Assembly (NCBI GenBank): GCA_020445765.1
Contig: JAGRFY010000006.1
Coordinates: 1-43,531 of the forward strand
Direction: 5' to 3'
From: Rhodocyclaceae bacterium
Lineage (GTDB): Bacteria > Pseudomonadota > Gammaproteobacteria > Burkholderiales > Rhodocyclaceae
Length of the DNA: 43,531 nucleotides
Shown piece by piece: positions 20,146 through 39,822 of this stretch (position 1 is its first letter; every line of letters begins with the position of its first letter). A program made the translations under genes and the position numbers. The notes under the pieces are model-generated. The model did not search any database. It was not told where the DNA came from and saw only the letters and a program-made list of their open reading frames with translations.

Positions 20146-21330
20146 ATGCGACACGCGAAATCTCTGTCCAAGAGACTGATGCTGTTCCGGATCTTCATCG
20201 TCATGGTGTCGGTGGAGTTCGTGATCATGCTGCTGATCGAGTCGAGCCCGCTCAACGGCAATCCCGTCCTGGAAATCGCGCTCGACGTCTTCCTGCTCGG
20301 CTGCATTGCGACTCCGGGCATCTACTTCTGGGTCGTGCGACCATTTGTCCTCGACCGCGACACGGCCCTTCAGGAGAGCGCCCGCCAGGCGCGAACGGAC
20401 CACCTCACCGGACTCGCCAACCGGCGACAGTTCCGCGAAGCGCTGGCGGTCGAACATGCCCGCCTCCAGCGCACCGGCGGCGCCTTGGCGATCGTCCTTG
20501 TGGACGTGGACTATTTCAAGAAATTCAACGACTTTCATGGCCACCTGGGTGGCGACGAATGCCTCCGGCAGATCGCCGGCGCGATCGCCGGCTGCGCGAT
20601 GCGTCCGGCCGATCTGGTGGCGCGCTACGGCGGCGAGGAATTCGTTCTGGTGCTGCCGGACACTGACATCGACGGCGCCCGCAAGATGGGCGACGAGATC
20701 CGCCGGCGGGTCGAAGCGCTCGGCATCGCCCATGGCGCCCCCGGCGCCGGTCCGCTGGTCACCGTCAGCATCGGCGTCGCGGCCGGCGCCTGCACGCGAG
20801 AAGCGTCTTCGCTGGCGCTGGTGGCGAACGCCGACGAGATGCTCTATCGCGCCAAGTCCGGCGGGCGCAATCGGGTGGAGGCGGCAACCCGCGAGGCCGC
20901 CGACATCGGCGCGCTGCCGTCCACGGTCGAGTTCGGCGACCACTACCGCTGCGGCAACGACTATATCGACGGCCAGCACGAGCAGATCATGCGTCACACC
21001 GATCGCCTGCTGCTGGCGCTGGCCGGACCGGACTCCGGAACCACCTTCGAAGATGAGGTGGTGGCCCTGCTGCGACTGGTAGCCGCCCATTTCCGCGACG
21101 AGATCGTGATCCTCCGACGCCTCGGCTTTGCCGATGCCGACGCCCACGCCCGGGAACACGCCCGACTGCTCGACAAGGCGGCCACGCTGCTGCGTGACTA
21201 CCGCGCCGGCACGGCGGCCCCCAGCACCCTGTTCCATTTCTTCGCCCGCGAGCTCGTGTTCGAGCACGTACTGCTCGCCGACAAGGCATATTTCCCGTTG
21301 ACCGAGCGGGCCGGCGACATCTCGCCGTGA
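20146..21330 (+). CDS. Diguanylate cyclase with C-terminal bacteriohemerythrin domain
   Basis: The product has 394 residues. Two N-terminal membrane helices (about 10-65) precede a GGDEF domain: [20 protein letters not shown], then the active site GGEEF at 162-166. An RPAD inhibitory site sits five residues before it, so the enzyme should make c-di-GMP with product feedback. The C-terminal part (about 268-394) is a hemerythrin with all seven usual diiron ligands: H278, H315, E319, H334, H338, H374 and D379. The domain probably binds O2 and adjusts cyclase activity, as reported for other GGDEF-hemerythrin proteins. The gene diverges from a hybrid histidine kinase. The ribosome-binding site at 20146 is weak; Met12 is an alternative start. 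Confidence 0.92.
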
Positions 21331-26451: not shown

Positions 26452-27030
26452 ATGCATGCCATGCGTTCGCCGATGACTCGAGCGCGGCGCCGCCGGCCCG
26501 GCATCGGGGCGAGGTCGCGTCGCGCGATCGCGGCGACCGTCCGGCGTGCCCGGCCGACCGATGCGCGAACGCTCAGCACGCTGGCCATGCGCTCGAAATC
26601 GCTGTGGGGATATTCTCCCCGCTTCCTCAGTGCCTGCCGCGCGGAGCTTCGGGTGAGTCCGTCGGTCCTTGCCGACCGCGACCACATCTGCGTCGTTGCT
26701 CAACTCGGCACAGCCGTCGTCGGCTTCTGCCTGCTGAGCCGGGATGCAAGGCGGACCTGGGAGGTCGACGGGCTGTTCGTCGAACCGGAACGGATACGTC
26801 GAGGCATCGGCCGCAGCCTGCTATTGGCGGCATGCCGTCGCGCCCTACGCGCCGGCGCCCGCACGCTGTCGATTCAGAGCGACCCCCATGCCGCGGGCTT
26901 CTACCGCGCCATGGGTGCGGAGCCGGCCGGCAGCCGGGCGTCGGCGAGCATCCGCGGGCGCCGACTGCCTCTGCTGCAACTGCGGCTCGACACCCCCGCA
27001 GCCCGCTCGCGGAGCCGTCAGCGCGCGTAG
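26452..27030 (+). CDS. GNAT-family N-acetyltransferase
   Basis: The product is up to 192 residues. After an Arg-rich N terminus whose true start is unclear, the GNAT domain begins at TVRRARPTDARTLSTLAMRSK. It continues through SLWGYSPRF (the usual S-K-x-x-W-G-Y motif), VVGFCLL, WEVDGLFVEPERIRRGIGRSLL (acetyl-CoA-binding motif A) and GFYRAMGAE. Several ATGs lie close together (26452, 26461, 26476) without a strong ribosome-binding site. The last 13 bases overlap the end of the convergent glycosidase gene. Substrate is unknown. Confidence 0.77.
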   Translation: MHAMRSPMTRARRRRPGIGARSRRAIAATVRRARPTDARTLSTLAMRSKSLWGYSPRFLSACRAELRVSPSVLADRDHICVVAQLGTAVVGFCLLSRDARRTWEVDGLFVEPERIRRGIGRSLLLAACRRALRAGARTLSIQSDPHAAGFYRAMGAEPAGSRASASIRGRRLPLLQLRLDTPAARSRSRQRA

Positions 27031-30000
27031 CGGATGAAGACCGGGCCGCCCGCCTCGTCGAGCACGAGCGTGGCCGATCCGGGGTTCGCGGCGCTGGTCG
27101 GCGGCATCCAGCCATTGCCGAGATGGTCGGCCATGCCCAGCAAGCCGGCGAGCGGCACGTCGAGGATCGAGCGGCGGTCGCTCTCGCTTTGCCAGGCAAC
27201 GTAGACGATCTCGTCGGCATCCTCGAGCACCATCACGTGAAGCCCGGCCGGTACGTCGGCGAGCAGGCCGCGATTGCTGCGCCCGGCCGCAATGTCGAGG
27301 AACGCACGGATCGCCAGCGCCGCCGGCTTTGCCGTCAGGCTCCAGTCGTGGAGCGCGAAATTCTCCTGCACCGAGAGCGGATCGTCGCTCTGACTGGTGA
27401 GCTTGTAGGCGATCGACACTTCGGCACCGAGCGCCCAATGGACAAGCAGGCTGCGTGCCGCCAGCTTGGCCTGCCGATCGAGGAACCCGGGGTCCGATCC
27501 GTCCTCGCCGAGGCCGACCATGCCGAGCGAGAATCCCCATTCGGTCAGCCAGATCGGCAAGCGCACACCGAGCAGATCGCGGATCAGGCGGTCGGCCGCG
27601 ACCCAATTGCCAGGCAGCGCCTCCGGACGCCCGTAGGCATGTATCGCGACCGCATCGGCGCGATCGGCGGCGCCCGACGCGAGCATTTCGGTCAGGTACG
27701 GCAAGTCGAAGTAGGACAGACCACCGGTGCTGATCACCGCATCCGGCGCGACGCTGCGCATCGCCGACATGGCTGCCGTGGCAAGCGCCGCGTACTGCCC
27801 CGCGTCCGGCGCGCCGGCCCAGTAGTTCTCGTGGTCGGGCTCGTTCCAGATCTCGAATGCAACGTCGTCGGCGGCATAGCGCTGCGCTGCCGCCGCCGCG
27901 AAGCGAGCATAGGCGGAGACGCCTTCGGCCGTCCGGAAGTCGTGGTCCGGATGACCGTAGTCGAGAATCAGCAGCACGCGCAGGCCGCGGGCGCGGATGG
28001 CGTCGACCACGGCGTCGTAATACGAGAAATCGAACGTCCCCTCGTTTTCGACCCGGACCCAGAACAGGTCGAGGCGCAGCAGGGACAGGTCGATCGCCGC
28101 GGCCGCGCCGATCTGCGCCTGCGACCCACCGGGATGAAATGCCGCGCCGAAGCGCTCGCCGACGGTGCCGTCGATCGCCGTGGGCGCGATCCGCGGCGCA
28201 GCGTGATCCAGCGCGTAGACCGTGTCCGCGTCGGGCTCCATTTCGAACGCATCGATCAGCACCCGACCGCTGGCCGCGCGCGACAAGGCATTGCGCGCAA
28301 CCACGGCGATACCCTGGATCGGCCCATCGACGACGCCGTCACCGTTGCCACCCCACCAGTTCTCGGGCGCACCCAACAATACATGGGCCGGATACCAGAG
28401 GTCCTCGCTCGCGCCTTCGACCGTGCGCGGCACCATGTACTGCAAGGTCTCGCCGGTGGCGTCGATGACCCGCAGCGCGAGATCGACGTTGCCCGGGGAA
28501 AGTGCCCGGAACGCAATCGCGCGACCTGCCTCGACCGGCTCTGGCAGGCCGAGCTGGGCCACCACGTGACTGCCGCAGGCAGTACCGCTGCAGGTGAGTT
28601 CATAGTTCAGCGCCAGCGCGCCGCTGCCGTCGGCCGTCACCCGTTCGACCGAACCTGACGACAGGGCGTCGCCCGGATTGAAGCGCCACGGGCCGAGCAC
28701 CGTGCGCTGGTCGAAATCGTCGATCGTCAGTGCCGTGTCGCCCAACGTCCGGACCGGATCCGGTACCGCTTCGAGCAGGCTGACCCGATCGACCTCGAGA
28801 ACGCCGGTGACGGCCACGCCCGCCGCGCTCGAGGCGAGCAGTTGAATCTTGCGGATGCCCCCTTCGATGCGTCCGCTGGCGGCGCCGCCCCAGGACTGGT
28901 CGGGACGGGCGAGATCGGCGAGTGCGCGATACCAGGTTTGCTGGTCGTAGCCGGACAGCGGGCGGATCAGCCGGTATTGCAGGGTCTGCCCGCTGGCGTC
29001 GATGATGCGTGCGTGAAGCTGCAGATACGACGGCGAGCGGGTCATCAATGCGAGCGCCGCCCGGGCCTCGATCGGCTGCTCGAAGTTCAAGGTCGCAGCC
29101 GCATATTCGCCGCAGCTCTGGCCGGCGACAAGGCATCCGAAATCATAGTCCAGGTGCATACCCCGCGTCGATTCGAAGCCCGGACCGGTGGCGAGGCTGG
29201 CGCGCGTTCCGACGCCGGCGGAATGCCACAGCGACCACGGCTGCACGACACTGCGGTCTTCGAAGTCGTCGACCACCACTTCGCCGTTGACCAGCACCGG
29301 AGTATCCGGCGCAGGCAATTCGGTAAGCTGGGCGACCCGATCGATTTCGACGGCGCCGGCCTCTGCCGTTCCGCTGCGCGTCTCCACCAGGATCCTGACC
29401 GAAGCGATGTGCTGCTCGACGCGGCCGCTGGCGGCGCCGCCCCAGAAGGTCTGCGGCGCCGACAGATCGACGACGGACGGGTACCAGGCACCGGGCTCGT
29501 AACCGCTGGGCGGCCGCACCAGGCGATACTGCAGCGTCTGGCCGCTGGCGTCGATGACGCGCACCGAAAGATTCGCGGCAAGCGGCGAACGTGTCGCGAA
29601 AGCAAGCGCCGCCAGCGGTTGTACCGGCGTCTGCAGGCCGAGGATCGCCATCGCGTATTGCCCGCAGGTGCTGCCTGCGACGCGGCAATCGAAAGCGTAG
29701 TCGAGCCGCATGCCCCGCGTCGACTCGAAACCGGCCTGGCTCGCGACCGAAGCTCGGGTACCGCTGCCATCGGTCGACCAGGCGGACCAGGGCTGCACCA
29801 CCGGACGATCCTCGAAATCGTCGATGACCTGCATGCCGTCGACCACGGCCGGGGGCTGCGCCGACGGCACTGCATCGAGCAGAACGACATCGTCGATGTC
29901 GACGCCGCCCGCTTCCGCCAGCCCGGTTCGCGTGCTGACCAGCAGCCGAACCGACTTGATGCCCTGTTCGATCCGTCCGTTGGCGGCGCCGCCCCAATGG

Positions 30001-31067
30001 TTCTCGGGCTCGGCGAGATCGACGACCGCGGCGTACCAGACGCTCGGATCGAAGCCCTCGGGTGGCCGGGCGACGGCGTACTGCAAGGTTTGCCCGCTGC
30101 CGTCGACGATGCGCACCATGACGAGCGCGGCAGCCGGCGAACGGGTCGCGAAGCGCAGCGCCGCAGCGACCGGCAGAGCCGTCGAGAAGTTGTAGATGGC
30201 CAGCGCATATTCGCCGCAGTTGCTTCCCGGCGCGAGGCAGGCGAACTGATAGTCGAGGCGCAGGCCTCGCGTCGATCCGTGGCCGGCAACCGAACTCAGC
30301 GAAGCGGTGCTACCGCTGCCCGTGGTGTGCCAGGCGCGCCACGGCAGGACCACGCTGCGGTCCTCGAAGTCGTCGATCAGGATCTGGCCGCCGGAGAAGC
30401 CGGACGTCTGTGCCACCGGCACCTCGTCGAGCAGCCGGATCGAATCGATGTCGACGGCACCGGCCTCGGCCTTGCCGGTGCGCGTCGTCACCAGCAACCG
30501 GACGGAGCGGATGCCGCCGTCGATGCGCCCGCTGCGCGTGCCGCCCCAGTACTCCCTGGGCTGGGTCAGATCGACCGCGCTGGCGAACCATGCGGCGGCA
30601 TCGTAAGCCTCGTCTGGCCGCTTCACCGCGTATTGCAGCGTCTGTCCGCTGCCATCGACGATCCTCAGGTACAGCCGTGCTGCCAGCGGCATGCGCGCCA
30701 CCAGCGCCATCACCTTGTTGCCGGGAACCGGATCGGCGTAACCCTTGATCGCGAGCGCGTACTGCCCACAGTTGCTGTTCGCGACCCGGCAGTCGAACGT
30801 GTAGGCGAGACGCAAGGCGCCAGAGGACTCGTGGCCCTGGGCCAGCGACAGCGCGATCGATGATCCGGCGCCGTCGGTGACCCAGGCATGCCAGGGCGAA
30901 GGGTCGCTCCGGTCGTCGAAACTGTCCACGATCAGCGACGCCGCCTGCGCGGCCGGGATATTGGCGAGAATCGCCAGCAACAGCGCGGCCAACAACGCAA
31001 CGAGACGCGAGTTGAAGACGGCAACGGGGCGACGGGCTGTCGGGGATGGGCGACAGTAAGAACTCAT
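27018..31067 (-). CDS. Large secreted glycoside hydrolase (clan GH-A, GH39/PslG-like) with five repeat domains, riboswitch-controlled
   Basis: The product has 1349 residues. A signal peptide ends near residue 42 (LANIPAAQA). Five homologous domains of about 165-185 residues follow (about 44 to 945), each starting like IDDFEDRS..PW.AW and containing a Cys pair (e.g. C..GSNCGEYA), SGQTLQY and WGG. Their beta-rich pattern suggests carbohydrate-binding jelly rolls. The C-terminal TIM barrel (about 970-1349) has the acid/base Glu in EIWNEPDHENYW (E1076) and the nucleophile in WLTEWGFS (E1176), as in clan GH-A enzymes such as GH39/PslG. It should cut a polysaccharide outside the cell, perhaps the cell's own matrix. 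AGGAG lies eight bases before ATG. A class I c-di-GMP riboswitch occupies its leader. Substrate is unknown. Confidence 0.88.
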   Translation of the reverse strand: MSSYCRPSPTARRPVAVFNSRLVALLAALLLAILANIPAAQAASLIVDSFDDRSDPSPWHAWVTDGAGSSIALSLAQGHESSGALRLAYTFDCRVANSNCGQYALAIKGYADPVPGNKVMALVARMPLAARLYLRIVDGSGQTLQYAVKRPDEAYDAAAWFASAVDLTQPREYWGGTRSGRIDGGIRSVRLLVTTRTGKAEAGAVDIDSIRLLDEVPVAQTSGFSGGQILIDDFEDRSVVLPWRAWHTTGSGSTASLSSVAGHGSTRGLRLDYQFACLAPGSNCGEYALAIYNFSTALPVAAALRFATRSPAAALVMVRIVDGSGQTLQYAVARPPEGFDPSVWYAAVVDLAEPENHWGGAANGRIEQGIKSVRLLVSTRTGLAEAGGVDIDDVVLLDAVPSAQPPAVVDGMQVIDDFEDRPVVQPWSAWSTDGSGTRASVASQAGFESTRGMRLDYAFDCRVAGSTCGQYAMAILGLQTPVQPLAALAFATRSPLAANLSVRVIDASGQTLQYRLVRPPSGYEPGAWYPSVVDLSAPQTFWGGAASGRVEQHIASVRILVETRSGTAEAGAVEIDRVAQLTELPAPDTPVLVNGEVVVDDFEDRSVVQPWSLWHSAGVGTRASLATGPGFESTRGMHLDYDFGCLVAGQSCGEYAAATLNFEQPIEARAALALMTRSPSYLQLHARIIDASGQTLQYRLIRPLSGYDQQTWYRALADLARPDQSWGGAASGRIEGGIRKIQLLASSAAGVAVTGVLEVDRVSLLEAVPDPVRTLGDTALTIDDFDQRTVLGPWRFNPGDALSSGSVERVTADGSGALALNYELTCSGTACGSHVVAQLGLPEPVEAGRAIAFRALSPGNVDLALRVIDATGETLQYMVPRTVEGASEDLWYPAHVLLGAPENWWGGNGDGVVDGPIQGIAVVARNALSRAASGRVLIDAFEMEPDADTVYALDHAAPRIAPTAIDGTVGERFGAAFHPGGSQAQIGAAAAIDLSLLRLDLFWVRVENEGTFDFSYYDAVVDAIRARGLRVLLILDYGHPDHDFRTAEGVSAYARFAAAAAQRYAADDVAFEIWNEPDHENYWAGAPDAGQYAALATAAMSAMRSVAPDAVISTGGLSYFDLPYLTEMLASGAADRADAVAIHAYGRPEALPGNWVAADRLIRDLLGVRLPIWLTEWGFSLGMVGLGEDGSDPGFLDRQAKLAARSLLVHWALGAEVSIAYKLTSQSDDPLSVQENFALHDWSLTAKPAALAIRAFLDIAAGRSNRGLLADVPAGLHVMVLEDADEIVYVAWQSESDRRSILDVPLAGLLGMADHLGNGWMPPTSAANPGSATLVLDEAGGPVFIRYAR
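28230..30938 (-). repeat. Five tandem domain-sized repeats inside the glycosidase gene
   Basis: Units begin near 30938, 30385, 29834, 29284 and 28728 (reading leftward), about 550 bases each. The first four are most alike; the fifth diverges and lacks parts of the Cys-containing segment. The similarity is also visible in DNA, so unit number could vary between strains by recombination. Confidence 0.8.
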
Positions 31068-31076
31068 GACATCGGC

Positions 31077-31119
31077 TCCTGCGTGACTCAACGGCCGGAA
31101 CGAGACGGGACAGGCAGGA
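31077..31119 (-). promoter_or_regulatory. Possible ribosome-binding-site-masking hairpin of the riboswitch
   Basis: On the RNA, UCCUGC (complement of 31114-31119) can pair with GCAGGA (31077-31082), which covers the AGGAG ribosome-binding site of the glycosidase gene. This lies in the 80 bases between aptamer and ATG and would suit translational control. There is no T-run for termination. The pairing is short, so it is only a proposal. Confidence 0.4.
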
Positions 31120-31149
31120 AGCGCGACACGGGTCTGCGCGCCATCATCG

Positions 31150-31232
31150 AGGCAACCAGGCGGCCATGGCGTACCAACGCTTTAGGCCCTGGGCTTTGCG
31201 TCCCGCGGTTTCCTGCGGTTTGCCCTGTACTC
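31150..31232 (-). promoter_or_regulatory. Cyclic-di-GMP-I (GEMM-I) riboswitch aptamer
   Basis: The minus strand carries the GEMM-I core in order: ACAGGGCAAACC, a hairpin with a GAAA tetraloop (GCAGGAAACCGC), the invariant GGGACGCAAAGCC, a GCC-CAG-GGC stem, CCUAAA, a second arm with the tetraloop-receptor side (GCGUUGGUACGCCAUGG), and the closing GCCUGGUUGCC that pairs with GGGCAAACC. This is the known c-di-GMP-binding aptamer. It lies about 80 bases upstream of the glycosidase ATG on the same strand. Whether ligand turns expression on or off cannot be read from the sequence. Confidence 0.93.
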
Positions 31233-31239
31233 GAACCCC

Positions 31240-31262
31240 GCGGGATGAATGTGTCATCCCGC
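31240..31262. other. Perfect 9-bp hairpin just upstream of the riboswitch
   Basis: GCGGGATGA (31240-31248) and TCATCCCGC (31254-31262) form a perfect stem with a five-base loop. It lies immediately 5' of the aptamer on the minus strand. No T-run follows on either strand. It could be an operator near the promoter or an extra RNA stem. The rest of the gap to 31524 must hold promoters for both divergent genes; none was clear. Confidence 0.45.
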
Positions 31263-31524
31263 ATGAGGAAGGTCTTCGGCAATGAGATTGAAGGCTTTAC
31301 CTGCGTTACAAATTCGACCCGTCTTCCGCACGGGCCATGGCCAACGATGTAGCAAGGCGCGCACCAGAAATGCCGAATGCTTACAATTTCCCGAGCAGCA
31401 CCATCGATCGCCGAGGGGGTCGAAAGGCGGCTGTCGTGATTCGGGCGGCGGAGCGGTGCCGGTGCTATGGCATGATGGCGCAATCATCGATGGCGGCCGG
31501 CAGGCCGCGAGGCGGCAGCCGATC

Positions 31525-33351
31525 ATGTCCCTGCTCCGAACCCGCCGGCACTGGCACCCGCTGATCGCCGGCATCGTGCCGGCCCTGTTGCTCGCCGCAT
31601 GCGCGCATGTCGCCGAACCACCGACCGCGTCGCCGGGCGTGGCTGCCGGCGTGCGCGGCTATGCCGGCGGCGTGGTGTCCGTGTCACACCCGCTGGCCGC
31701 CAGGGCCGGCGCCGACACGCTGGAGCGCGGCGGCAACGCGGTCGACGCGGCGGCGACGATCCAGTTCGTGCTGAACGTGGTCGAACCCCAGTCGTCCGGA
31801 ATCGGCGGCGGCGGTTTCATGATGATCCACCTCGCCGAAGAACGACGTACGCTGATCGTGGACAGCCGCGAGACTGCGCCGGCGGCGGCCAGCGCCGACA
31901 TGTTTGCGGGCATGGATTTCCGCCAGGCTTCGACCAGCGGGGTCGCGGTCGGCGTACCCGGGACACTGCTCGGCATCGAACTGGCACTCGAACGCTGGGG
32001 AAGCATGACGCTGGCCGAAACGCTGGCGCCGGCGATCGCGCTGGCCCGGGACGGATTCGCGATCAATCGCCAACTGGCTGCACGCACGGCCGATCCGCGC
32101 GCCGCGCTGTACCCGGCGACGGCCGCACGCTTTCGCGCCGCCGACGGCACACCCCTGCCCCCGGGCCACTGGCTGAGGCAGCCGGATCTGGCGCGGACCT
32201 TGGCGCTGATCGCCGCCGACGGCAGCGCGGTGTTCTACCGCGGCGAGATCGCGGATGCGATCGTCGCCGCACAGCGACAAAGCCTGATCGGCGACGGCGG
32301 CCGCGGCCGCATGACGCGGGCGGACCTCGCCGGCTATCGTCCCCGCGTGCGCGAACCGGTCGTTGGACACTATCGCGGCTACACCATCGAGTCGATGCCG
32401 CCGCCGTCGTCGGGCGGCCTGACGCTCTTGATGATGCTGCGTCTGCTTGAACGGTACCCGATCGGCGGCGACGATGCCGGCTGGGGATTCGGCGGCCGCC
32501 ATACGCTGCACGTGATGGCCGAGGCCATGCGGCTGGGCTTTGCCGATCGGTCGGTGTGGATGGGCGACGACGACCAGGTGCCGGTGCCGGTGGCCGGCCT
32601 GCTGTCCGACTGCTTCCTCGATTCGCGTGGCGCCCTGATCGATCTCGGCAGGCGGATGGCGACGCCGGACGCGGCCGACCCGTGGCCGTGCCAGGAGCAC
32701 GGCGCGATGGCCGGCGACGAAGCGTCGCTGGCAGGCCACGACGAGACCAAGGGGACCGACACGACCCACTTTACCGTCGTCGATCGCTGGGGCAATGTCG
32801 TCAGCTTCACGTCCACGATCGAGAGCGCCTGGGGATCGGGCATCACGGTTCCCGGCTACGGCTTCCTGCTCAACAACGAACTGACCGACTTCAACCTGGC
32901 ACCCCGGGCGGATGCGGCCAGCGGCGACCCCGGCAGCAACGACGTCGCCCCCGGCAAGCGTCCGCGCTCGTCGATGGCGCCGACGATGGTATTCCGCGAC
33001 GGCAGGCTGGTGTTGGCCTACGGCTCGCCCGGCGGCTCGACGATCATCAATTCGGTGCTGAACACCACGCTGAACCTGATCGACCACCACATGGATCTCG
33101 CGACCGCGATCGCCGCACCACGGTTCTCGGTGACGTCGGCGCAAGGCGCGATCCGCTGCGAAGCCGGCCTGCCCGACGACGCGCTCTCGCATCTGGCCCG
33201 GCTCGGCCACGAGTTCGGGCAGGACGCCGCCGCACCACGCTGCGGCGCGGAGATCGGCTCGGTGCAGGCGATTGCGATCGATCCGGTCTCGGGCTTGCAG
33301 CACGGCGGTGCCGACGGCCGCCGGCAAGGTACCGTCATCGGCCTGCCCTGA
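31525..33351 (+). CDS. Gamma-glutamyltransferase, lipoprotein form
   Basis: The product has 608 residues. A lipoprotein signal has its lipobox at LLAAC (Cys26). The proenzyme shows the family motifs: GGNAVDAAATIQFVLNVVEPQ, SGIGGGGFMM, SRETAPAAA and PPPSSGG. The autocleavage site is at T413 in KGTDTTHFTVVD, which becomes the N-terminal nucleophile of the small subunit. Later motifs include RPRSSMAPTMVF and YGSPGGSTIINSV. It should hydrolyse or transfer the gamma-glutamyl group of glutathione and related peptides in the periplasm. GAGG lies before the ATG at 31525; upstream frame sequence is not protein-like. The cupin gene follows 32 bases later. Confidence 0.93.
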   Translation: MSLLRTRRHWHPLIAGIVPALLLAACAHVAEPPTASPGVAAGVRGYAGGVVSVSHPLAARAGADTLERGGNAVDAAATIQFVLNVVEPQSSGIGGGGFMMIHLAEERRTLIVDSRETAPAAASADMFAGMDFRQASTSGVAVGVPGTLLGIELALERWGSMTLAETLAPAIALARDGFAINRQLAARTADPRAALYPATAARFRAADGTPLPPGHWLRQPDLARTLALIAADGSAVFYRGEIADAIVAAQRQSLIGDGGRGRMTRADLAGYRPRVREPVVGHYRGYTIESMPPPSSGGLTLLMMLRLLERYPIGGDDAGWGFGGRHTLHVMAEAMRLGFADRSVWMGDDDQVPVPVAGLLSDCFLDSRGALIDLGRRMATPDAADPWPCQEHGAMAGDEASLAGHDETKGTDTTHFTVVDRWGNVVSFTSTIESAWGSGITVPGYGFLLNNELTDFNLAPRADAASGDPGSNDVAPGKRPRSSMAPTMVFRDGRLVLAYGSPGGSTIINSVLNTTLNLIDHHMDLATAIAAPRFSVTSAQGAIRCEAGLPDDALSHLARLGHEFGQDAAAPRCGAEIGSVQAIAIDPVSGLQHGGADGRRQGTVIGLP

Positions 33352-33826: not shown

Positions 33827-34930
33827 ATGGCAAAGGGCATGATTCTGGCGGCAGGCCAGGGAACGCGGGTGCGTCCGCTGACGTCGCAGTTGCCGAAGCC
33901 GATGGTCCCGATCCTGGGCAAGCCGGTGATGGAGTACCTGGTCGAACACCTCGCCCGCTTCGGCGTGAACGAGATCATGGTCAATGTCGCGTTCAATCAC
34001 TGGAAGATCGAGGACTATTTCGGCGACGGCCGTCGCTGGGGCATCGATCTCGGCTATTCCTACGAGGGTGCCCGCGAACACGGCGAACTGGTGCCCAAGG
34101 CGGTTGGTTCGGCCGGTGCGCTGCGCAAGATCCAGGATTTCGGCGGATTCTTCGACGACACGACGATCGTCATGTGCGGCGACGCGATCGTCGACCTCGA
34201 CATCGGCGCCGCATTGCACGAACACCGGGCCAAACAGGCGATCGCCAGTGTCGTGACACTCGACGTGCCACGCCAGGACGTCAAGAACTACGGCGTCGTG
34301 GTCACCGACGACGCCGGCCGGATCCAGTCGTTCCAGGAAAAGCCGTCGCCGGACGAGGCGCTGTCGACGCTGGCCAGCACCGGCATCTACATCATCGAGC
34401 CCGAAGTCATCGATCGGATACCGTCCGGCGTGGTCTACGACATCGGCTCCGACCTGTTTCCGAAGCTGGTCGAGGAACGACTGCCCTTCTTCGCGCAGAA
34501 GCGCTTCTTCAACTGGATCGACATCGGGCGGCTGGCCGACTACTGGGAGGTTTCGCAGCGGGTGCTGCGCGGCGAGGTGGCCCAGATGGACATGCCGGGC
34601 CGCGAACTGAAACCGGGTGTATGGGTCGGCCTCAACACCTCGATCGCATGGGACAGCGTGCAGATCGCCGGCCCCGTGCATGTCGGCTCGGGCGTGCGCA
34701 TCGAGCCCGGGGTATCGATCGTCGGGCCGAGCTGGATCGGCCACGGCAGCCATATCCGGGCCGGCGCCAAGATAGAACGCTGCATCCTGAAGGAATACAC
34801 ACGGATCGGAGAGAGTCAGCGTTTCAGCGAGATGATCGTCTCGCCTCAGTTCTGCGTCGCGCGCGACGGCACCGCTCATTACCTCGGCGAGGACCTGTGC
34901 CCCTACCGCTGGGGCGATGCCCGCGGCTGA
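33827..34930 (+). CDS. Sugar-phosphate nucleotidyltransferase (NDP-sugar pyrophosphorylase)
   Basis: The product has 367 residues. The nucleotidyltransferase signature is MILAAGQGTRVRPLTSQLPK with the catalytic GxGTRxRPxT and PKP lysine. FGVNEIMVNVAF, TIVMCGDAIVDLD (metal-binding Asp) and FQEKPS follow. From about residue 250 there are left-handed beta-helix hexapeptide-like repeats (GPVHVGSGVRIEPGVSIVGP). It condenses an NTP with a sugar 1-phosphate. Sequence style is closest to mannose-1-phosphate guanylyltransferase or glucose-1-phosphate thymidylyl/uridylyltransferase groups, which I cannot separate here. GGAGG lies before the ATG. Such enzymes supply precursors for surface polysaccharide. 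Confidence 0.9.
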   Translation: MAKGMILAAGQGTRVRPLTSQLPKPMVPILGKPVMEYLVEHLARFGVNEIMVNVAFNHWKIEDYFGDGRRWGIDLGYSYEGAREHGELVPKAVGSAGALRKIQDFGGFFDDTTIVMCGDAIVDLDIGAALHEHRAKQAIASVVTLDVPRQDVKNYGVVVTDDAGRIQSFQEKPSPDEALSTLASTGIYIIEPEVIDRIPSGVVYDIGSDLFPKLVEERLPFFAQKRFFNWIDIGRLADYWEVSQRVLRGEVAQMDMPGRELKPGVWVGLNTSIAWDSVQIAGPVHVGSGVRIEPGVSIVGPSWIGHGSHIRAGAKIERCILKEYTRIGESQRFSEMIVSPQFCVARDGTAHYLGEDLCPYRWGDARG

Positions 34931-35534: not shown

Positions 35535-36436
35535 CGCACTGCCTGCGCGCTTCGGCACTGTCGGCCCTGTTGCTGGCGCCGGCCGCTCCGGCGCACACCG
35601 AGCCCCAGCCGATCACCGTGCTCGCGCTCGAATCCGCACCCGTGGTCGATGGCGAGCTCGACGACTGGGGGGCGGACGGGTGGCAGCGCATCGCCATTGC
35701 TCCCACCGTCCGGCCCGACGAGCGTGCCGAGCTGGGCCTGGGCGACAAGGATCTCAATGCGGTCGGCAAGTCGAGCGTCGAGCTCAAGGCCGGCGTCCAT
35801 CGCGACACCTTCTACCTCGCCGTGCGCTGGCCCGACGACACCGAGAATTCGGACAATGACGTCTGGTCATGGAACGGCCGCCGCTACGTCCGGGTGCGTC
35901 GCCACGGCGACATGTTCGCGGTACGCTTCGAACTGGCCGGCGATTACGACCGCAGCATGCTCTCCGGCAAGAACTACGAAGTGGACCTGTGGGAATGGAG
36001 CGCGCACCGCAGCCAGCGCGCAGGCATCGCTGGCGACTATCGCCACGTCATCGGTACGCGCATGATCGACAATGCCGCGGAATATACGGTCGCCGGCGTC
36101 GGTACGGTCTTCATCAAGAAGTTCGCGGATCAGGGCCATTCACCGTTCAAGACCGTCAAGCCGCCGAAGACCCGGCAGGAGGCGCAGTTCGACGCGATGA
36201 CGATCGACGGCGTCGCCGACGGCAGCTTCGCCGATGTCTCTGCCGACGGACGCTGGCACGATGGAATGTGGCGTCTCGAATTGTCGCGGGCGCTCGACAC
36301 CGGCCACGCGGACGACGTCGTATTGCCCGCAGGCGGCACGATCGTCGGGCAGATCGCGGTGTTCAACCACGCCGAAGACGAACACAAGAGCATCTCCGAG
36401 CCACTGCGATTCGATTTCTCGACGATCAGGCGCTGA
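35531..36436 (+). CDS. Exported ethylbenzene-dehydrogenase-type haem-binding domain protein
   Basis: The product has 301 residues. A signal peptide (MTHCLRASALSALLLAPAAPAHT) is followed by one beta-sandwich domain resembling the EB_dh/gamma-subunit haem b family: VVDGELDDWGADGWQRI near the start, DTFYLAVRWPDDTENSDND and MWRLELSRALDT later. In that family the domain holds haem b with Met/Lys ligands. Those residues cannot be fixed here. The start overlaps the cupredoxin stop as ATGA, so the two genes form a coupled pair, suggesting a periplasmic copper-haem electron-transfer unit. The last 11 bases overlap the convergent haem-cyclase gene. No DMSO-reductase-family catalytic subunit is present. 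Confidence 0.82.
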   Translation: MTHCLRASALSALLLAPAAPAHTEPQPITVLALESAPVVDGELDDWGADGWQRIAIAPTVRPDERAELGLGDKDLNAVGKSSVELKAGVHRDTFYLAVRWPDDTENSDNDVWSWNGRRYVRVRRHGDMFAVRFELAGDYDRSMLSGKNYEVDLWEWSAHRSQRAGIAGDYRHVIGTRMIDNAAEYTVAGVGTVFIKKFADQGHSPFKTVKPPKTRQEAQFDAMTIDGVADGSFADVSADGRWHDGMWRLELSRALDTGHADDVVLPAGGTIVGQIAVFNHAEDEHKSISEPLRFDFSTIRR

Positions 36437-38117
36437 CGGCCGTCTCCGCGCGATTCCGGCCGGCAGACTTGGCCCGGTAGAGGGCGCTATCGGCCGCCGA
36501 CAGCAACTCGATCGGCGATGCGGCCGCGACCGCTTCGGTACAGGCGATGCCGATACTGATCGTTACCCGCAGGCCGCCAACGTCCAGTTGCTCGACATCC
36601 CGCCGGAGACGTTCGGCGACCGGTGTCGCGTCGCCGCAGTGCAGACCCGGCAGTACCGCGACGAACTCCTCGCCGCCGTACCGGCCGAGCACGTCGTAGC
36701 AGCGCAGCGTCTCGCGCGCGCGCCGCGAGACCGCCTGCAGCACGCGATCACCGGCTTCGTGACCGTGTTCGTCGTTGAAGCGCTTGAAATGATCGACGTC
36801 GAAGATCACCACCGCCAGCGGACGCCCGCGGATGCCCATGCGTTCGAACTCCTCGGCGAACCGGAGGTCGAGATGGCGCCGGTTCAACAGACCGGTGAGT
36901 TCGTCGGTGCGGGCCATTGCCGACAGTTGCTCGCGAAGCCGATGCTCGTCCTCGACGTCGCGGATCAGCGCCGCCGAGCCGATCACCGTCCCACCGCTGT
37001 CACAGATCGTCGATGCGCTGACCGCCAGCATGCGACCACGGTACTGGAGCTGGACGCGCTCGCATTCCTGCTCGCCGATCAGCAGACTGTGGATGATCCC
37101 GGGATGATCGACGATGTTGTCGAATCCTTCCTCGCAGATCTGGGCCGCGGATTTTCCGAGAATTTCCTCGGCCGCCGGATTGACCAGCACGACCTGCCCG
37201 TCGCGGTCGGTGACGACGACGGCCTCGTGCGAGGTCAACAGGATCGTTGTGAGCTTGTCCTGTTCGGCCAGCAGGCTCAGATAGTTGGCCTTCAAGCGCT
37301 CGCGCATCAGGTTGAAGCTGCTCGCCATCTGGCCGATCTCGTCGTCCGACTCGACCGGAACGCCGTGTTCCCAATCGCCGGTGGCGACCCGCCGCATGGC
37401 CCGGGTGACGCCCTCGATCGGTCGGAACAGCAGGCGGCCGAGCAGATAGCCGGTCAGCAGCATGGTCACCGCCAGCGCGATCACCAGCCCGATCAAGGCC
37501 TGCACGCGGGCTTCGCTCATGTCGTGCTCGACCGCCCGGAACGAGGTCTCGAGCACCACCACGCCACGCACCGGCTGACCGTCGTCGTGGCATTCGGCGC
37601 ACACCGGGCGCGCAAAGATCGGATCGAGAAACAACGACAGGCGCTCGCCATCCGGCTCGAAGCGGGTGATATCCACCGCCTCGCGGCCCGAGACCACCCT
37701 CGCGAACTCCTGCCGAACCGCCTCCGGAATAGGAGCCGGCGCCGCCTCACCGTCGTTGCGCAGCTCGAACGCCGGGTAGCCGAGGCGGGCATTGACCCGC
37801 TCGATCGTGACATTGTCGCGAAACGCGGGGGTGCCATCGATGCGAACGATCAGAAAGCGCCTCGCACCGCCAATGCCGGCGAGGCGCCGGGTGAACTCGG
37901 CGGCCACCTCGGCGTGCCCGCCCGCCATGATCGATTCGAGACTGGTGCCGACGGCGTCGGTGACCTTGTGCAGGGCCCGTTGATGTTCCGCGAGGATGGC
38001 CTCCTCGGCCTGGCGGACATAGATCACGGCGGTACCGAACAGCCCGACCAGCACCACGAGGCTCATCCCGATCAGCAGCCGGAAGCGAAGCCGGCCCAGC
38101 ACCGACAGGCCGATCAC
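36426..38117 (-). CDS. Haem-c sensor diguanylate cyclase (TM, CxxCH, TM, HAMP, PAS, GGDEF)
   Basis: The product has 563 residues. The first membrane helix is near 13-35. A periplasmic domain (about 36-200) holds a c-type haem motif CAECH at 173-177, just before VRGVVVLETSF. The second helix (LIGLVIALAVTMLLTGYLLG) is followed by HAMP, a PAS domain (LLTSHEAVVVTDRDGQVVLV) and GGDEF with DELTGLLNRRHLD, active site GGEEF at 481-485 and inhibitory site RCYD five residues before it. It should be an active, feedback-controlled c-di-GMP synthase sensing redox state or a gas through periplasmic haem. The GTG start at 38117 lies four bases after the upstream paralogue's stop, with GAGG inside that gene. 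The two were produced by tandem duplication. Confidence 0.9.
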   Translation of the reverse strand: MIGLSVLGRLRFRLLIGMSLVVLVGLFGTAVIYVRQAEEAILAEHQRALHKVTDAVGTSLESIMAGGHAEVAAEFTRRLAGIGGARRFLIVRIDGTPAFRDNVTIERVNARLGYPAFELRNDGEAAPAPIPEAVRQEFARVVSGREAVDITRFEPDGERLSLFLDPIFARPVCAECHDDGQPVRGVVVLETSFRAVEHDMSEARVQALIGLVIALAVTMLLTGYLLGRLLFRPIEGVTRAMRRVATGDWEHGVPVESDDEIGQMASSFNLMRERLKANYLSLLAEQDKLTTILLTSHEAVVVTDRDGQVVLVNPAAEEILGKSAAQICEEGFDNIVDHPGIIHSLLIGEQECERVQLQYRGRMLAVSASTICDSGGTVIGSAALIRDVEDEHRLREQLSAMARTDELTGLLNRRHLDLRFAEEFERMGIRGRPLAVVIFDVDHFKRFNDEHGHEAGDRVLQAVSRRARETLRCYDVLGRYGGEEFVAVLPGLHCGDATPVAERLRRDVEQLDVGGLRVTISIGIACTEAVAAASPIELLSAADSALYRAKSAGRNRAETAVSA

Positions 38118-38121
38118 CGGC

Positions 38122-39822
38122 TCAGGCCTCGACGAGGTCTGCACTGCCGTCTCCGGCCATCCGTACCCGATCGCGCCCCGCGCGCTTGGCTTCGTAGAGG
38201 GCGGCGTCGGCCAGTTCGAGCAGGCGCTTGGGCGAATCCGCCGCCAGCTGCGGCACACTGGCGACGCCGACCGAGATCGTCACCTTGAGCCCGTCGACCT
38301 CGCTGGCGGCGACGCCGGCACGCAGGCGCTCAGCCACCGCCATCGCGCCCTTGGATGGCGTCGCCGGCAGGATCGCGAGAAACTCCTCCCCGCCGTAGCG
38401 GCAGGCGACGTCGTGACCGCGCAAGGTGTCGCGGAAGATCGCCGCGACACGGCACAGCACTCGGTCACCCTGGTCGTGACCGTGCATGTCGTTGAAGATC
38501 TTGAAGTGGTCGACGTCGAACATCAGCACCGACAGTGGGTCGTGATTGCGGGCGGCGCGATGCCACTCGATGTCGAGCGTCGCGTCGAGGTGACGGCGAT
38601 TGAACAGGCCGGTCAGGCCATCGGTCGTGGACAGGCGCCGCAGTTCGTCCTCCAGCCGCTTCTCCTCGGTCACGTCCCTCAGCAATGCCGCCGAGCCCAC
38701 CACGTGACCGTCGCTGGCGTGGATCGTCGACGCGAAGACCTGCAGCACGTTGGGGCCATAGCGCACCGTGACGGGCCCCTCGGCATGATCGTCGGCGAGC
38801 CATGCGCGCATCGATGCGGGGTCGTCGAGCAGGGCCTCCAGCCCCTCCTCGGTGATCCGGTCCCTTGACTTGGACAGCAGGCGCTCGGCCGCAGGATTGA
38901 CCAGCACCACCGCGCCGTTGCCGTCGGTCAGCACGATACCTTCGCCAGCGCTGCGGATGATCGTCGTCAGCTTGTCCTGCTCACGTCGCAAGCCATCGTA
39001 GGTATTGCGCAATTCGGCGGTCATGACGTTGAAGCTCTGTGCCATCCGCCCGAGCTCGTCGCGGCTGCCCACCGGTACCTGATGGTCGAGGTCCCCGGTG
39101 CTGGCCCGCGACATGGCCTGCGTCACCCGTTCGATCGGCCCAACCACCGATCGCCCGAGCATGAAACCGGTCATCAGCATGGTTCCGGTGAGGGCAACCA
39201 CCAGCACCAGCAGCGAATCCTGCCGCGCCCGCAGGATGTCCCGCTGGACCTGGGCGAGCGACGTCGTCAGCTTGAGCACGCCGCGGATCGGTCTGACGCT
39301 GCCGTGGCACTTGTGGCAAGCCTTCTGATTGGAGATCGGCGACAGGAAGGTCAGCGTCGGATCGCCGTTCTGGTCTTCGTCGTAGATGGTCAGGATGGAC
39401 TTGCTGTCGAGCACCTTCAGCAGGTTCGGATCCCGATGGTCGAGCACACGAATACGCTGTTCGCTGTCGCGCGGCAGGAACAGTTCTTCGCCACGGCGCT
39501 CATTGACTTCCTCGATCGTGCTGTTGTCGCGGAAGGCTTCGAGGCCGTCCACGCGCAACACCCTGAAATCCTCGACTTCCGGCACGCGCTTGAGCCGGTC
39601 GGCAAAGGCCTGGGCAATGTCGGCGGAGCCCGCCAGCATGACGCTCTGCAGGCCCTCGATCACGCTCTCGGTCAGCTTGCGCATGGTCCGCTCGTTCTGC
39701 GCCAGGACCGAGCTCTCCTGGTGGCTGGTATAGAAGGCTGCGGTGGCGATCAGCCCCGCAGCGACGGCGATGCCGACCACTGCGATGATCTTGTAGCGGA
39801 TCCTGCCGACGAAAGCCTTGAT
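38122..39822 (-). CDS. Haem-c sensor diguanylate cyclase, likely ATC start
   Basis: This 566-residue paralogue of the downstream gene has the same order of parts: membrane helix, periplasmic domain with haem motif CHKCH at 169-173, second helix (LLVLVVALTGTMLMTGFML), HAMP, PAS (IIRSAGEGIVLTDGNGAVVL) and GGDEF (DGLTGLFNRRHLD, GGEEF at 477-481, inhibitory site RGHD). No ATG, GTG or TTG opens the frame upstream of GTG 39780, which has no ribosome-binding site and starts inside the membrane helix. ATC at 39822 has GGAGG five bases before it and adds KAFVGRIRYK, matching GRLRFR in the paralogue. First gene of the cyclase pair. Confidence 0.88.
   Translation of the reverse strand: MKAFVGRIRYKIIAVVGIAVAAGLIATAAFYTSHQESSVLAQNERTMRKLTESVIEGLQSVMLAGSADIAQAFADRLKRVPEVEDFRVLRVDGLEAFRDNSTIEEVNERRGEELFLPRDSEQRIRVLDHRDPNLLKVLDSKSILTIYDEDQNGDPTLTFLSPISNQKACHKCHGSVRPIRGVLKLTTSLAQVQRDILRARQDSLLVLVVALTGTMLMTGFMLGRSVVGPIERVTQAMSRASTGDLDHQVPVGSRDELGRMAQSFNVMTAELRNTYDGLRREQDKLTTIIRSAGEGIVLTDGNGAVVLVNPAAERLLSKSRDRITEEGLEALLDDPASMRAWLADDHAEGPVTVRYGPNVLQVFASTIHASDGHVVGSAALLRDVTEEKRLEDELRRLSTTDGLTGLFNRRHLDATLDIEWHRAARNHDPLSVLMFDVDHFKIFNDMHGHDQGDRVLCRVAAIFRDTLRGHDVACRYGGEEFLAILPATPSKGAMAVAERLRAGVAASEVDGLKVTISVGVASVPQLAADSPKRLLELADAALYEAKRAGRDRVRMAGDGSADLVEA

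Follow-up and report, generated by a model that had tools for sequence, protein, structure and literature searches.

The 5′ leader of a gene for a PslG-like glycosidase in a Rhodocyclaceae bacterium, a relative of floc formers in sludge, carries a c-di-GMP-I (GEMM-I) riboswitch aptamer, which probably controls translation of this presumably exported and matrix-directed enzyme as an OFF switch. A short linker strand, UCCUGC, would be exchanged between the P2 hairpin of the aptamer and the Shine-Dalgarno (SD) site of the gene. Both the riboswitch class and the enzyme type are already known. The coordinates of the features are given in Table 1 and refer to the window, i.e., the whole stretch of 43,531 nucleotides that was analysed.

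Table 1. Positions of the aptamer, the leader pairings, the glycosidase gene and a neighbouring gene in the window
Feature	Position	Strand	Basis or remark
c-di-GMP-I (GEMM-I) riboswitch aptamer	31148..31234	-	RF01051 full-length covariance match
P1, 5′ strand UCGAG with CUCGA	31234-31230 with 31151-31147	-	read from sequence
P2 hairpin CCGCAG-GAAA-CCGCGG, A.C mismatch inside	31203..31218	-	cmscan alignment
GCAGGA in P2 (5′ strand and loop), proposed decoy	31211..31216	-	identical to SD-site GCAGGA
UCCUGC, proposed exchange strand (anti-SD / anti-P2)	31114..31119	-	complementarity and folding
Ribosome-binding site GCAGGAG	31076..31082	-	AGGAG 31080-31076, 8 bases 5′ of ATG
Hairpin, 9 bp, directly 5′ of aptamer	31240..31262	-	z -3.69, 0/200 shuffles as good
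PslG-like glycosidase, 1349 aa	27018..31067	-	ORF, Pfam, PDB sequence match
PslG-like clan GH-A catalytic domain	27018..28193	-	PslG best PDB match by sequence and fold
Glu1076 (WNEP); Glu1176 (TEWG)	27842-27840; 27542-27540	-	alignments
Five tandem CBM11-like modules, 184-aa spacing	28200..30935	-	orthologue motif spacing, alignment, AlphaFold2 and Foldseek, weak Pfam
Sugar nucleotidyltransferase	33827..34930	+	Pfam; adjoins glycosidase homologues in two other genera also

Identity and anatomy of the aptamer

When the whole window was searched on both strands with all 4227 Rfam families, the only match above a gathering threshold was a full-length match to RF01051 (cmscan; model positions 1-87, 76.3 bits against a gathering threshold of 35, E 2.2e-13); a whole-genome search recovered the same aptamer with an E value of 5.8e-15. 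This covariance model had been proposed as a check in a sequence-only reading of the same DNA, whose description of a GEMM-I core was borne out, since the P2 hairpin with its GAAA loop, the CCUAAA segment, the receptor arm and GGUUGCC are all present. The genus is represented by the window's genome (G000) and five congeners (G001-G005), of which G004 is without the enzyme. P2 and P3 both appear in the RF01051 alignment of the window aptamer, the mismatch in P2 being marked at the equal pair in the cmscan alignments of G002, G003, and G005, and the P1 pairing can be read in the leaders of the same three congeners (4 bp in G005). The aptamer belongs to the 5′ leader of a same-strand gene, with 80 bases between the end of the model at 31148 and the ATG at 31067, in agreement with the distance of about 80 bases to a 1349-residue open reading frame given earlier.

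The residue at RF01051 model position 11 is a G in the window aptamer. Position 11 of Cd1, which equals G20 of Vc2, is described as steering cyclic-dinucleotide selectivity as a factor and not as a hard filter (PMC9262584); the equation of Rfam model position 11 with the Vc2 G20 position is our own reading of the alignment. A cGAMP-type aptamer is disfavoured because model position 11 is a G. By class, the element is a genuine c-di-GMP-I riboswitch, for which binding of c-di-GMP is predicted. The host genome (4.84 Mb in 210 contigs, 94% complete) contains two c-di-GMP-I aptamers, that of the window and one on a 4.2-kb contig, and the same search returned none in 14 control genomes.

The hairpin directly upstream of the aptamer recurs with z values of -3.03 in G002, -2.61 in G003, and -3.55 in G005; in G001 it is visible only in the folding of the leader. 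It is thus seen in all five genus leaders with varying letters (GGGAU/AUCCC in the window, GGAAU/AUUCC in G001, and letters bearing no relation to these in G003 and G005), and is perhaps a conserved RNA structure.

The target gene and its likely substrate

The N-terminus of the glycosidase looks like a signal peptide when judged by eye, and export of the enzyme is predicted. Its C-terminal part matches the Pfam family Cellulase/GH5 (PF00150; 40.2 bits, cut-off 23.5). The GH39 family (PF01229) reached 21.7 bits in the window protein, under the curated cut-off of 26, and for this reason the enzyme is called PslG-like and membership in GH39 is not claimed. PslG is the best PDB match by sequence (E 7.2e-15) as well as the best fold match of the catalytic domain, for which an AlphaFold2 model with a pLDDT of 88.1 was searched (Foldseek E 3.9e-21, TM 0.79, approximately 22% identity). 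Together with the GH5 match, these results uphold the assignment to clan GH-A made from the sequence. Glu1076 and Glu1176 are invariant in two alignments (7/7 and 17/17 aligned sequences), and, standing at the places expected for clan GH-A, they are presumably the catalytic residues.

The five beta-rich repeats described in the sequence-only reading correspond to the five CBM11-like modules. In the two equally long orthologues, a motif search located four modules spaced 184 residues apart, and in G005 it located six; the window's five modules align at the orthologue offsets with 51-58% identity to the second module, or 31% in the case of the diverged fifth. When one module was modelled with AlphaFold2 (pLDDT 92.7), the top three Foldseek matches of the model were CBM11 structures (TM approximately 0.7, 16% identity), the best being CBM11 of Clostridium thermocellum. 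Pfam CBM_11 (PF03425) scores 29.1 bits against a cut-off of 27 over the whole protein, each single stretch staying below the cut-off. PslG is a retaining endo-beta-glucosidase according to PMC11912335, and such an activity would suit CBM11-like modules, the substrate of the window enzyme being putative.

The gene order glycosidase, gamma-glutamyltranspeptidase, nucleotidyltransferase, cupredoxin, EB_dh-domain protein, two GGDEF proteins, and NUDIX is conserved in four congeners as far as the stretches reach. The nucleotidyltransferase shares 83% identity with the neighbour of the G200 homologue and 73% with the protein beside the G180 relative. Glycosyltransferases surround the homologue loci of G266, G200, and G180, and a MurJ-like flippase, a UDP-glucose dehydrogenase, a sulfotransferase, an acyltransferase, and a Wzy-type protein occur at one or other of these loci. 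The window itself holds one sugar-nucleotide gene near the glycosidase and no full exopolysaccharide cluster. The likeliest substrate would be the bacterium's own matrix, mainly because the homologues in three other genera adjoin exopolysaccharide genes. For Pseudomonas aeruginosa, PMC9769550 reports that pslG expression is up in dispersed cells and that inducing pslG by itself was enough to disperse a cdrA mutant but not the wild type; the abstract of that paper differs in stating that wild-type biofilms were dispersed by pelA, pslG and/or endA. Intracellular PslG also shapes biofilm growth, as described in PMC9075953.

Close to the glycosidase, the window has two adjacent HAMP-PAS-GGDEF genes (36426-39780, minus strand), and elsewhere it encodes a GGDEF-hemerythrin protein (20146-21330, plus strand); these proteins are possible local sources of c-di-GMP. 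A GH114 glycoside-hydrolase protein, recognized by Pfam at 451-1329 on the minus strand, is possibly another polysaccharide-active enzyme.

Distribution in relatives

The enzyme is present in five of the six genus genomes. G004 lacks the enzyme, has no RF01051 match and has kept the nucleotidyltransferase. Upstream of the enzyme, cmscan gave RF01051 matches of 65.9 bits in G002, 66.0 bits in G003, where the glycosidase gene is split across two contigs, and 57.5 bits in G005. The G001 leader yielded no RF01051 match at E values up to 0.1, nor at E values up to 10 in a 261-base stretch. An aptamer that is decayed yet alignable can still be discerned there (L049, approximately 2030-2120), the gene, the SD site, UCCUGC, and the 5′ strand of P2 having been kept. 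G001 is a natural case of aptamer loss with the gene intact.

In 395 genomes drawn evenly from a larger family, long homologues were found beyond the genus in G200 and G266 and a shorter one in G180. In G266 (Methyloversatilis discipulorum MAG_31), an aptamer of 61.9 bits lies upstream of a homologue of 1719 residues. No aptamer was detected in approximately 1.3 kb upstream of the G200 homologue at E values up to 0.5, or in approximately 1 kb upstream of the shorter G180 homologue; both genomes have aptamers elsewhere. Hence, an aptamer directly precedes five of the seven long homologues, is decayed in one (G001) and absent in one (G200). Among 61 genomes, made up of the host and 60 relatives, 33 have at least one RF01051 match. 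The homologue loci numbered 36: 22 were scanned, namely that of Methyloversatilis and 21 further PslG-like loci from Burkholderia, Caballeronia, Paraburkholderia, Aquabacterium, and one other proteobacterium, four genus leaders were scanned separately, and ten distant loci were left out. None of the 21 further loci showed an above-cut-off RF01051 match in the stretches scanned, and a general link between the riboswitch and PslG-like genes was consequently rejected.

Other aptamers of the class were encountered in the course of this survey. The host's second aptamer (contig C170, L003:255-342, minus strand) precedes a gene for a small protein with a signal-like start and no Pfam match, which measures 137 aa in G002 and is cut by the contig end in the host. 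Proteins related to it by BLAST follow aptamers in G000, G001, G002, G014, G017, and G033, and the copies in G003 and G005 appear to be this gene with the reading frame wrongly chosen. Downstream of 62 aptamers from 33 genomes, the largest protein cluster has nine members (L081:592-2904 and eight further loci), the one scanned being DUF1631, and a cluster of five includes a subtilase (one member scanned). On contig C18 of G008, two aptamers (88577-88664, minus strand; 89017-89104, plus strand) stand back to back, approximately 350 bases apart and facing away from each other.

Proposed exchange pairing in the leader

UCCUGC has two perfect partners, GCAGGA at 31082-31077 in the SD site and the GCAGGA copy in P2. 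The sequence-only reading had proposed a stem of UCCUGC with the SD site that masks the ribosome-binding site. Its complementarity is indeed perfect, but the stem was rejected as stand-alone evidence and taken alone is at most suggestive, because a duplex this strong is also reached by 92 of 1000 shuffled linkers in the window; the corresponding counts for a linker:SD duplex of equal strength are 266, 228, and 947 of 1000 in G002, G003, and G005. Both duplexes were jointly matched in 37, 151, 133, and 633 of 1000 shuffles (G000, G002, G003, and G005, respectively). A longer pairing, in which the linker engages the entire 5′ half of the aptamer, was equalled by 99, 62, 39, and 134 of 1000 shuffles in the same order, and by 954 of 1000 for the decayed aptamer of G001; the species being non-independent, this pairing is suggestive and not decisive. 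P2 holds GCAGGA in four of the 62 aptamers, all four upstream of the glycosidase gene, and a fifth aptamer has GCAGGA outside P2.

RNA folding was treated as equilibrium ensembles only. In the unconstrained ensemble, the UCCUGC:P2 pairing stood at 0.92-0.99 in five of five frames of the window's leader and at 0.93-0.98 in four of five frames of G002, the fifth giving 0.14. When P1 and P2 were enforced, UCCUGC:SD rose to prominence at 0.90-0.94 in G000 and 0.98-0.99 in G002; enforcing the aptamer frees UCCUGC by construction, and the model's own contribution is the subsequent preference for the SD site. SD accessibility thereby fell from 0.36 to 0.01 in G000 and from 0.34 to 0.10 in G002, drops matched by two and six of 300 shuffled linkers, respectively. 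In G005, it fell from 0.47 to 0.24, a change equalled by 49 of 300 shuffled linkers and within chance. In G003 modelled with 20 coding bases, accessibility was 0.00 in both states, with no switching and 205 of 300 shuffles equal; models with 3 or 10 coding bases showed a large drop, from 0.31-0.62 down to at most 0.03, and those with 20 or more showed none. The sign of the drop was constant in 20 of 20 frames for G000 and again for G002 (ends by temperature, with 25 or 60 upstream bases). With 60 coding bases the change in accessibility was small, SD accessibility in G000 being low in both states, and in the free state the G000 SD site is mostly paired with other partners (unpaired 0.12-0.47). 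Formation of P1 and P2 carried a modelled cost of 3.6 kcal/mol in one frame of G000 and 3.9-9.7 in longer ones.

The Methyloversatilis leader has a different SD site and P2. SD accessibility falls there in five of five lengths, from approximately 0.4 to 0.12-0.15 in three and little in two; in the single length compared with shuffles (20 coding bases), 147 of 300 did as well, so that no excess was seen. UCCUGC has been kept in G001 and G002 amid an otherwise diverged linker and is absent from the linkers of G003 and G005. Since UCCUGC is missing in the latter two and since G003 and Methyloversatilis show no excess over shuffles, the exchange was rejected as a general rule; in the folding model it is clearly defined in two closely related species, a wider use of the design being unproven. 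A scan of 31000-31700 found no intrinsic terminator-like site, and an intrinsic terminator was accordingly rejected as the expression platform. The promoter is unplaced because a scan for sigma-70 promoters found none.

Proposed mechanism and alternatives

The earlier suggestion of translational control stands as a possibility, the stem then named being one half of an exchange with P2. The direct tie of polysaccharide cleavage to c-di-GMP put forward in the same reading is likewise a prediction. At low c-di-GMP, UCCUGC in the linker would pair with GCAGGA of P2 and the aptamer would unfold, leaving the SD site freer, so that the enzyme could be made. Once c-di-GMP is bound, P2 would be held in the aptamer and the released UCCUGC would pair with GCAGGA of the SD site, thereby blocking translation. 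Repression by c-di-GMP is therefore predicted from the exchange with P2, and synthesis of the enzyme would follow a fall in c-di-GMP, which is what one would expect if it serves to loosen the matrix of its own cell.

The same riboswitch and enzyme might instead form an ON switch or act on transcription, for example by Rho-dependent termination, and not through the SD site. Both directions exist among c-di-GMP-I riboswitches, V. cholerae having two that respond oppositely (PMC6366702), and the pairing of much of the SD site in the free state with 60 coding bases would agree with such a scheme, as would the lack of SD switching against shuffles in G003 and Methyloversatilis. On the other hand, 31000-31700 has no intrinsic terminator-like site that was found, and the modelled effect of the aptamer in G000 and G002 is occlusion of the SD site beyond nearly all shuffles; we regard this alternative as rather unlikely, though deserving serious attention. 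It is very improbable that the riboswitch is vestigial or decaying and has little regulatory effect in this species. Decay past recognition with the gene intact has occurred in G001, and G200 has no aptamer, but the window aptamer scores 76.3 bits with an intact core, and the aptamer survives in three congeners and another genus.

A further alternative retains a real riboswitch and concerns the substrate: the enzyme might digest foreign beta-glucans as food, c-di-GMP then signalling surface life on the substrate. This would fit the resemblance of the modules to CBM11, which according to structure titles has been solved with mixed-linked beta-glucan, and the c-di-GMP riboswitch ahead of a putative chitinase gene in Aeromonas hydrophila (PMC6366702). 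However, the catalytic domain is closest to PslG, a matrix endoglycosidase, and in three other genera homologues, including one short relative, stand beside exopolysaccharide genes; digestion of foreign glucans seems unlikely. Translational repression of a self-matrix glycosidase is the explanation that we favour.

Comparison with known systems

The window aptamer shares with the c-di-GMP-I family (RF01051) a full-length above-cut-off match, the elements P2 and P3, and a G in model position 11; it differs by the exact copy of the SD hexamer in P2, the internal mismatch, and the proposed SD exchange. PslG of Pseudomonas aeruginosa is the PDB entry closest to the window enzyme in both sequence and fold, its glutamates align, and relatives are encoded with exopolysaccharide genes; the identity of approximately 22%, the five fused CBM11-like modules, the lack of a full exopolysaccharide cluster in the window, and the riboswitch leader set the window enzyme apart. 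Chitin from outside the cell is the concern of Vibrio gbpA, as of the putative chitinase of A. hydrophila, whereas the window enzyme would act on the cell's own matrix, as proposed. As here, c-di-GMP-I riboswitches precede these two genes for polysaccharide-active or polysaccharide-binding proteins (PMC6366702). In Clostridium difficile, zmpI is likewise under a c-di-GMP-I riboswitch and repressed by c-di-GMP, and its product frees surface proteins (adhesins); the class I switches of that organism are said to act via transcription termination (PMC6366702). ZmpI is a protease, in contrast to the predicted polysaccharide hydrolase of the window. Within open-access full text, a scope that leaves out most subscription journals, no report of the UCCUGC exchange pairing was found, nor were the terms 'c-di-GMP riboswitch' and 'glycoside hydrolase' found together.

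Implications

Cells that disperse step up their matrix-degrading enzymes, and c-di-GMP often acts on the genes concerned by indirect routes. In the present case, the message of the likely matrix hydrolase itself bears an RNA sensor. The proposed exchange would explain simply, and in a form open to test, how a c-di-GMP-I riboswitch that has no terminator may act, and the decayed aptamer of G001 provides a natural control. The related metagenome-assembled genomes presumably stem from activated sludge, in which the strength of flocs is of practical importance. It is tentatively conceivable, at somewhat less than even chances, that a decoy copy of the SD hexamer sits in the ligand-binding hairpin, that a single anti-SD strand is exchanged between the two copies, and that falling c-di-GMP thereby turns on an endoglycanase directed at the cell's own matrix. 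If true, this decoy exchange would give Rhodocyclaceae a dispersal circuit that needs no receptor protein.
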